DNA from: Desulfobulbaceae bacterium UBA2273
Lineage (GTDB): Bacteria; Desulfobacterota; Desulfobulbia; Desulfobulbales; Desulfurivibrionaceae
Direction: 5' to 3'
Assembly: GCA_002347095.1 (NCBI GenBank)
Contig: DDWZ01000011.1
Span: 208,547-272,546 of the forward strand
Length of the DNA: 64,000 bases
Part shown: piece by piece, positions 54,835 to 56,430 of the stretch
Layout of the letters: every line of letters begins with the position of its first letter
Position numbering within the stretch: the stretch's first letter is position 1
Notes under the pieces: model-generated
Told to the model about the DNA's origin: nothing
The model's database searches: none
Seen by the model: the letters and a program-made list of their open reading frames with translations, nothing else
Position numbers and translations under genes: made by a program

Positions 54835-56430
54835 CTATCTCGTTTCAATCCCCTTGCTCCGCAGATGCGCCTTCACCGCACTGATGGGCACTTCCTTTCG
54901 GTGAAAGATCCCCGCCGCCAGGGCTGCCTCGGCTCCGGTTTCCTCGAACACCTCGGAGAAATGCTCCACCTTGCCCGCGCCGCTTGAGGCGATAACCGGG
55001 ATGGAGACCGCCTGTCGCACCTGATTGATCAGCTCCAGGTCAAAGCCCGAATTGGTGCCGTCCTTGTCGATGCAGTTCAACAGTATCTCTCCCGCGTCCA
55101 AGGCCTCGCAGGAGGTGGCCAGTTCCAGGGCGTCCACCTCGCGGCCTTCGCGGCCGCCCTTGATGGTGCACTGATACCAGCAATACTCCTCGCCGTTTGG
55201 TCCGGGGAATTTGGTCTTGATGGTGTGGCGCGGGGTGTCAGCCGGCGATTTCACATAGACCCGGCGCGGGTCAACGGAGATCACCACGGCCTGATTACCG
55301 TACACCGCCGAAATCTGCTCGATGGAGCTGGCCCCGGTTTTCTTGCCGGTTTTCAGGTATTCCTCCGCAATGAGCACCGCGTCGCTGCCGATGGAGATCT
55401 TGTCGGCCCCGGAGCGGAAATATTCCGAGGCCACGTCCAGGGCTGAGTAGTGTTTGCCCTCCGAGTCGGTGAACTCGCGGATGCCGCCGCCGATGGTGAG
55501 CGGCACGAAGACCTGTTCCGAGGTGCGCTGCAAGACCTCAAGCATGGGCTGGTCCTTCATGGGGAAATCCCGGAACCCGGTGATGTTCAAAAAGGTGATC
55601 TCGTCGGCGCCTTCCTCGTAGTAGCGGCGGGCCAGCTCCACCGGCTTGCCGAGGTTGCGCACCTCGCCCTGGGCTTCGCGCACATCGTACTGGTCGCCCT
55701 TGGTCACCACCAGGTCGCCGTTGTCGTTGCTGCGCACATCGAGGCAGGCGATGATCCGTTTGGCGAGCCGGGTTTCCGCCGGGGCGGTGGAGATTTCCAT
55801 GGGGCTCACAGCGGAAAGATCCGTGGCTTCCAAAAAGTTTTTAAGGATCATAAGCCCGGCGGCGCCGCTTTTTTCCGGGTGGAACTGGCAGGCCGCCACA
55901 TTGCCCTTCTGCACCGAGCTGATGAACTCCTCGCCGTAGTTGGTGGTGGTCAGCACCCATTCCTCGTTGCCTGCTTCGATGGCGGCCCGGTAGGAGTGGA
56001 CAAAGTAGAGCTTCTCCTCCGCGAACCCGGCCAGCAGCCGGGAGGGTTTTCTGATATTGATGCCGTTCCAGCCGATCTGCGGCACCGAAAGGGTTGTCTC
56101 GGTGAATCTTCTGACCTGGCCCTTGATGATCCCCAGCCCGGCCACGCCCAAGGCCTCCTCGCTTCCTTCGAACAGGGTTTGCAGCCCCAGGCAGATGCCC
56201 AGGAATGGCCGGTCGGCCCGGAGGTATTCCAGCAGGGGCTCGACATAGCCGAATTGGTGCAGCCGCTGCATGGCGCTGCCAAAGCTGCCGACCCCGGGGA
56301 AGATCAGCTTTTCCGCGGCCAGGATATCCGCCGGAGTTTTGGCGTCGGTAACGGTGAAGCCGAGTTTTTTGATGGCGTTGCGGACGCTGCGGACATTGCC
56401 GGCCCCGTAGTCCAGAAGTGTTATGTTCAT
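54835..56430 (-). CDS. hisHF: Bifunctional imidazole glycerol phosphate synthase (HisH-HisF fusion, HIS7 type)
   Basis: A 531-residue fusion of glutaminase (HisH, about 1-205) and cyclase (HisF, about 225-531). The HisH part has GVGSFG, GICLGLQTLF with the nucleophile Cys, and QFHPEKSG with the catalytic His-Glu. The HisF part has RIIACLDVRSNDNGDLVVTKGDQYDVRE, FLNITGFRDFP, GADKISIGSDAV, GPNGEEYCWYQCTIKGGREG and ASSGAGK (by landmark). These insertions match yeast HIS7 rather than typical bacterial HisF of about 255 residues. The ATG at 56430 was chosen over a TTG four codons upstream. No other his genes are adjacent. Confidence 0.95.
   Translation of the reverse strand: MNITLLDYGAGNVRSVRNAIKKLGFTVTDAKTPADILAAEKLIFPGVGSFGSAMQRLHQFGYVEPLLEYLRADRPFLGICLGLQTLFEGSEEALGVAGLGIIKGQVRRFTETTLSVPQIGWNGINIRKPSRLLAGFAEEKLYFVHSYRAAIEAGNEEWVLTTTNYGEEFISSVQKGNVAACQFHPEKSGAAGLMILKNFLEATDLSAVSPMEISTAPAETRLAKRIIACLDVRSNDNGDLVVTKGDQYDVREAQGEVRNLGKPVELARRYYEEGADEITFLNITGFRDFPMKDQPMLEVLQRTSEQVFVPLTIGGGIREFTDSEGKHYSALDVASEYFRSGADKISIGSDAVLIAEEYLKTGKKTGASSIEQISAVYGNQAVVISVDPRRVYVKSPADTPRHTIKTKFPGPNGEEYCWYQCTIKGGREGREVDALELATSCEALDAGEILLNCIDKDGTNSGFDLELINQVRQAVSIPVIASSGAGKVEHFSEVFEETGAEAALAAGIFHRKEVPISAVKAHLRSKGIETR

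Follow-up and report, generated by a model that had tools for sequence, protein, structure and literature searches.

The gene at 54835..56430 (minus strand) of a 64,000-nucleotide stretch of DNA from Desulfobulbaceae bacterium UBA2273, which at its whole length we call the window, joins the glutaminase HisH and the cyclase HisF in one protein of 531 residues. We hold with little doubt that this gene, hisHF, is a HisH-HisF fusion of the HIS7 type known from yeast, that in all likelihood the cell has no other imidazole glycerol phosphate (IGP) synthase, and that it is established in its lineage and shares an ancestor with eukaryotic HIS7. Direct support within our analysis comes from the architecture of the protein, the inserts in its HisF half, a model of its fold, the clade in which it falls together with its eukaryotic counterparts and the fact that no second intact copy was found. 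The same genome also carries a HisA of the eukaryotic type, and the two enzymes, sitting in a bacterium, bear on the source of eukaryotic his genes.

The finding is not new in kind, because Fani et al. (2007; PMC1963479) reported three HisHF sequences in two delta-proteobacteria, with shared inserts, and inferred their transfer from plants; bacterial HisHF has been known since then, and the window gene belongs to that known group. Why, then, return to it? The only published direction of transfer that we found rests on those three bacterial sequences (PMC1963479), and a 2021 paper (PMC8305728) describes the possible prokaryotic donor of eukaryotic HIS7 as "still unknown." An origin in Desulfobacterota, if true, would turn round the plant-to-bacterium direction now in print and give that donor a name.

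The fused chain and its inserts

The open reading frame of this putative bifunctional IGP synthase runs from an ATG at 56430 to a stop at 54835 without an internal stop, and within its single chain HisH precedes HisF. The glutaminase domain (residues 1–201; 55828..56430, on the minus strand like all the parts of the gene given here) matches TIGR01855, the NCBIfam model of HisH, over residues 2–200 with 212 bits against a cut-off of 105, and the cyclase domain (residues 221–531; 54838..55770) matches TIGR00735, the model of HisF, over residues 221–530 with 323 bits against a cut-off of 295. Between the two matches lies a linker (residues 202–220; 55771..55827) that is variable in the alignment. 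A search of the PDB with the whole protein returned yeast HIS7 (1jvn) as the best match, over residues 4–530 with 593 bits, the second being a stand-alone HisF (HisF-LUCA) at just 189 bits; the predicted structure has the same fold as yeast HIS7, matching it at full length. The first-pass annotation of this DNA had proposed a glutaminase and a cyclase in one chain, and the three matches (TIGR01855, TIGR00735 and 1jvn) bear it out.

Five residues, C80, H184, E186, D231 and D387, are invariant in 42 of 42 HisHF proteins. We take the first three to be the likely glutaminase triad, from the roles of such residues in HisH, and D231 and D387 to be the likely acid/base pair of the cyclase, from those in HisF. 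By analogy with yeast HIS7 and with HisH and HisF, the protein would have IGP synthase activity and would channel ammonia: C80, H184 and E186 of the N-terminal half would hydrolyse glutamine, the ammonia released would travel down the barrel that the C-terminal half forms, and there D231 and D387 would help to convert N'-[(5'-phosphoribulosyl)formimino]-5-aminoimidazole-4-carboxamide ribonucleotide (PRFAR) and ammonia into IGP and 5-aminoimidazole-4-carboxamide ribonucleotide (AICAR).

The HisF half contains eight extra segments, 52 residues in all (237–241, 249–252, 254, 289–291, 323–333, 354–362, 364–365 and 399–415), whose columns hold residues in 90% or more of 49 fused sequences. Seven of the eight are empty in all 30 of the 30 separate HisF sequences compared, while some columns of the eighth (399–415) are filled in up to 20% of them; in Methanosaeta, the only methanogen sequence printed, seven of eight are empty. 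On the DNA they fall, by this comparison of fused with separate sequences, into insert region 1 (residues 237–254, NGDLV...DVRE; 55669..55722; the first three segments), insert 2 (289–291; 55558..55566), insert 3 (323–333; 55432..55464), insert region 4 (354–365; 55336..55371; segments 354–362 and 364–365) and insert 5 (399–415, ...PGPNGEE; 55186..55236). The HisF halves of fused proteins measure 308–316 residues (two shorter pieces set aside), and separate HisF proteins mostly 248–257 in bacteria and 259–271 in some archaea. HisF-half insertions shared only by bifunctional proteins are a feature named in the Figure 5 legend of PMC1963479. It had been suggested from the letters of the window that the cyclase half carries insertions and motifs of yeast HIS7 and that ordinary bacterial HisF is without them; both statements hold, and both of the motifs then quoted span HIS7-specific segments.

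The fused chain and the HIS7 inserts rule out an ordinary stand-alone HisF as the identity of the gene. A fusion of ordinary bacterial type is likewise rejected, because scores against a HisF profile do not overlap: they are at least 424 bits in all 340 fused sequences found and at most 220 bits in all 89 separate ones.

How does the protein compare with those already known? Yeast HIS7 (PDB 1jvn, 1ox4-6) has the same one-chain HisH-HisF arrangement, the same insert segments and, in the model, the same fold, with about 53% identity to the window protein from end to end (53–54% among yeasts), and it differs by host, a eukaryote there and a bacterium here. Plant HISHF (HISN4, chloroplastic) shares the architecture and the inserts at about 64% identity on the alignment (63–65% among plants) or 67% on the tree columns, and plant and yeast proteins are less like each other (52% on the alignment and 54% on the tree columns) than the plant protein is like that of the window. 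The aligned plant protein is also longer at its N-terminus by about 60 residues, presumably a transit peptide, which the window protein lacks. Ordinary bacterial HisH and HisF have the same two activities and folds, but they are two genes, and their HisF is without the inserts. The HisHF proteins described from delta-proteobacteria (PMC1963479) and from two Archaeoglobales (PMC11237513) are the same fusion with inserts, of which the window protein is a member. Its closest relatives bearing an organism name belong to metagenome-assembled genomes called Proteobacteria and Desulfobulbaceae (92% identity), and the closest with a genus name is that of Thiovibrio sp. JS02 (83%); by themselves these relatives point to Desulfobulbales as the probable order of the window.

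Copy number, setting and a second eukaryote-type enzyme

The genome of UBA2273 that we searched is 97.8% complete. It yielded six matches to PF00977 (cut-off 23.6 bits), namely hisHF (163 bits), HisA (94 bits), three at 24.6–26.1 bits, one of them the relic of another hisHF, and one below the cut-off. It also yielded six GATase matches, among which only hisHF hits our custom HisH profile at 1e-10; over the PF00977 and GATase loci together, hisHF alone matches both the HisH and the HisF profile at that threshold, and the relic matches the HisF profile only. The genome-wide search for separate copies that the first-pass annotation had recommended (PF00977, GATase and HisH/HisF profiles) thus found no second intact hisH or hisF in the 97.8% at hand, and hisHF is therefore very probably the cell's IGP synthase.

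Several points pull the other way. Besides the relic there are two weak PF00977 matches (24.6 and 26.1 bits), neither of which hits the custom HisF profile at 1e-10; the genome is incomplete; the other his genes sought were hisA and hisB only; and the confidence of the structural model is low at residues 245–257 and 283–291, which overlap insert region 1 and insert 2.

The relic, of HIS7 type, is about 120 bp long (G000:C26:18640-18758; L004 1483-1601; L204 8641-8759) and aligns with the window gene, with gaps, at a DNA identity of 75%. It looks like a scrap of gene inside an integrative element, because a tRNA-His, a phage-type integrase and a DUF3631 gene precede it.

Both hisA and hisB lie on contigs other than that of hisHF. 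By eye, the 3.4-kb stretch of hisB contains no other his gene, and an NCBIfam scan of nine neighbours of hisHF gave no his family among the matches listed (tatC, radical SAM, TadA-like, SDR, MltD-like and oxidoreductase, with three of the nine having no match). The three his genes examined (hisHF, hisA and hisB) are thus scattered, and hisHF does stand alone, as had been noticed at the outset.

The HisA of this genome (hisA_euk; G000:C23:49674-50426, or L002 1426-2202, minus in L002) scores 349.8 bits against TIGR02129, the hisA_euk model (cut-off 229.3), and 65.9 bits against the ordinary model TIGR00007 (cut-off 229). Among solved structures its top-scoring matches are plant HISN3 (9fcf, 292 bits) and yeast HIS6 (2agk, 211 bits), and it is 56% identical to the protein of Medicago, 46% to that of yeast and 18–31% to 13 sequences taken as ordinary HisA from weak profile matches. 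It is of the eukaryotic type, and the sequence predicts an isomerase. Because HisA makes the substrate of HisHF, two consecutive steps of histidine synthesis are eukaryote-type in this bacterium. We found no report, in the open PMC literature, of eukaryote-type HisA in bacteria or of its pairing with HisHF; curators at NCBI may know of bacterial members, since an NCBI model for that type exists.

Distribution across genomes

Of 296 genomes drawn from the phylum to which the window belongs, apparently Desulfobacterota, 53 carry HisHF (three of them as partial matches) and 28 carry hisA_euk, which was found in 0 of 14 control genomes. Both are present in 20 genomes, HisHF only in 33, hisA_euk only in 8 and neither in 235, an association with an odds ratio of 18 and a Fisher p of 4e-11, uncorrected for relatedness. 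Counted by family codes, HisHF is found in 23, hisA_euk in 13 and the pair in 8 (in f32 from different genomes), which gives p 0.002 on the assumption of 96 families, the highest code observed. The two genes travel together often but not always, because genomes with just one of them exist: the eight with hisA_euk only carry ordinary separate hisH and hisF, and G228, a genome from the same family as the window, has HisHF without hisA_euk. With 23 family codes and with hisA_euk in 20 of the 53 HisHF genomes, the phylum allows the idea of gene flow between eukaryotes and anaerobic bacteria to be put to the test. In one of its genomes we also observed a second copy of hisA_euk with an internal TAG (G162:C20:32377-33114; L151).

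These counts also speak to a more mundane explanation, that eukaryotic contamination or misassembly placed the gene in a bacterial genome. Many such genomes are, as is generally known, binned from metagenomes, but hisHF sits on a 272-kb contig some 5 kb from tatC, the gene recurs in related genomes (the 53 of 296), and the nearest named relatives are the bacterial ones at 92%, well above plants and yeasts. We regard contamination as wildly improbable.

Beyond the phylum, HisHF turned up in 1 of 196 genomes from the phylum of Methanothrix (G503:C9:31374-32963; L154), at 71% identity to the window's. A search for hisA_euk (TIGR02129) in that phylum, the only one outside its own in which it was sought, gave 0 of 196 without a positive control in that run, the model having found its members within the window's own phylum; the sample seems to be the same draw, and G503 is not in the part of it that is listed. 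HisHF without hisA_euk there would be consistent with an archaeon having received hisHF by itself. The same query and cut-off (1e-130) that gave this archaeal match found HisHF in 0 of 299 genomes of Pseudomonadota, 0 of 149 of Acidobacteriota and 0 of 299 of Bacillota (0 of 747 in total), with no positive control within these phyla, whose names are those of the loci at their centres (SAR86, Bryobacterales and Paenibacillus, respectively); lacking such a control, the zeros carry no weight of their own. Among the 80 named bacterial loci that were kept, at least 14 are fused, under titles that read Desulfobulbaceae, Desulfobulbus, Desulfobacteraceae, Desulfobacterales, Desulfocapsa, Desulfofustis or plain Deltaproteobacteria or Proteobacteria; this survey undercounts HisHF, and one of its two patterns is also present in ordinary HisH.

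Trees and the direction of transfer

Our careful HisHF tree had 73 rows, with the insert columns removed and 24 rows of separate HisH and HisF as outgroup; eukaryotes were represented by four plants and two yeasts (and, for HisA, by one plant and one yeast). The window protein groups with yeast and plant HIS7 apart from the separate rows, as the tree proposed in the first-pass annotation was meant to reveal, and all fused rows form one clade (100/100), as they do against 30 separate rows in a quicker tree (100). Could bacteria and eukaryotes nevertheless have fused hisH to hisF independently and converged? Joining neighbour genes is easy in principle, and hisH adjoins hisF in many of the separate rows, but both groups have the eight insert segments in common, along with motifs such as DLVVTKGDQYDVRE, the single clade persists even with the insert columns removed, and two fused clades within separate HisF would be needed, of which the trees show none. 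Separate origins can be set aside as extremely unlikely.

Which way, then, did the gene go? In the quick tree, a set at 98 unites the eukaryotes with 14 bacterial rows, among them that of the window; in the careful tree, the eukaryotes group at 81/75 among bacterial lines, with the base unresolved, and bacterial HisHF is monophyletic in 14% of bootstraps (the bootstrap had not settled). When the yeast rows are left out, the plants fall with those same 14 bacterial rows at 99/99, opposite the remaining bacteria, and bacterial monophyly appears in 0% of bootstraps; with fused rows only and no root, plants and yeast lie apart and bacteria fall on one side in 3%. For HisA, the bacteria form one clade in 0% of bootstraps, with a p-AU (approximately unbiased test, AU) of 0.046 and a long-branch warning, and in 0%, 1% and 3% with other sets of rows. 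In the best trees built, for HisHF and for HisA, the bacterial proteins are never one clade against the eukaryotic ones.

All of this goes against the proposal of Fani et al. (2007) that plants passed the fusion, which would have arisen in eukaryotes, to delta-proteobacteria, where it then spread, and so does its presence in 23 family codes of one phylum. The proposal has points in its favour: HIS7 is said to be present in every eukaryote that makes histidine (PMC8305728), and the fit suffers little when bacterial HisHF is forced into one clade (log-likelihood 1.7 lower, p-AU 0.36; 0.29 without yeast; 0.28 with fused rows only). Nor does the test reject a clade that joins bacteria to plants and leaves yeast outside (p-AU 0.345), or one that joins them to yeast and leaves plants outside (0.318), and for HisA with a smaller outgroup of five rows, bacterial monophyly has a p-AU of 0.19 (0.08 without yeast, 0.26 without the plant). 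The stem to separate HisH and HisF is long, at about 1.7 changes per column, and yeast is a long branch. We judge a passage from plants into bacteria to be unlikely, while giving it some weight.

The best trees, which seat the eukaryotes among bacterial branches, favour transfer from bacteria to eukaryotes, and AU p values of 0.046 to 0.36 leave the direction unsettled. The window gene had been read at the outset as either a relative of the ancestor of the eukaryotic gene or an acquisition; the first option gains from best trees with eukaryotic HIS7 inside the bacterial family, and the AU test does not reject the reverse. It is a serious possibility, on which we would not quite bet, that Desulfobacterota akin to sulphate reducers gave eukaryotes both HisA (HIS6/HISN3) and HisHF (HIS7/HISN4), possibly at the same time and possibly in more than one transfer; the separation of plants from yeast in the unrooted tree would fit several transfers, though the two group weakly (81/75) in the rooted one. 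A study of plant HISN2 (PMC8102479) indicates Deltaproteobacteria for two earlier steps as well.

Elsewhere in the window, positions 53141-54037 encode a DUF6602 protein (65 bits), beside which two small open reading frames (51751-52161 and 52476-53054), with no Pfam or NCBIfam match, look hydrophobic by eye.
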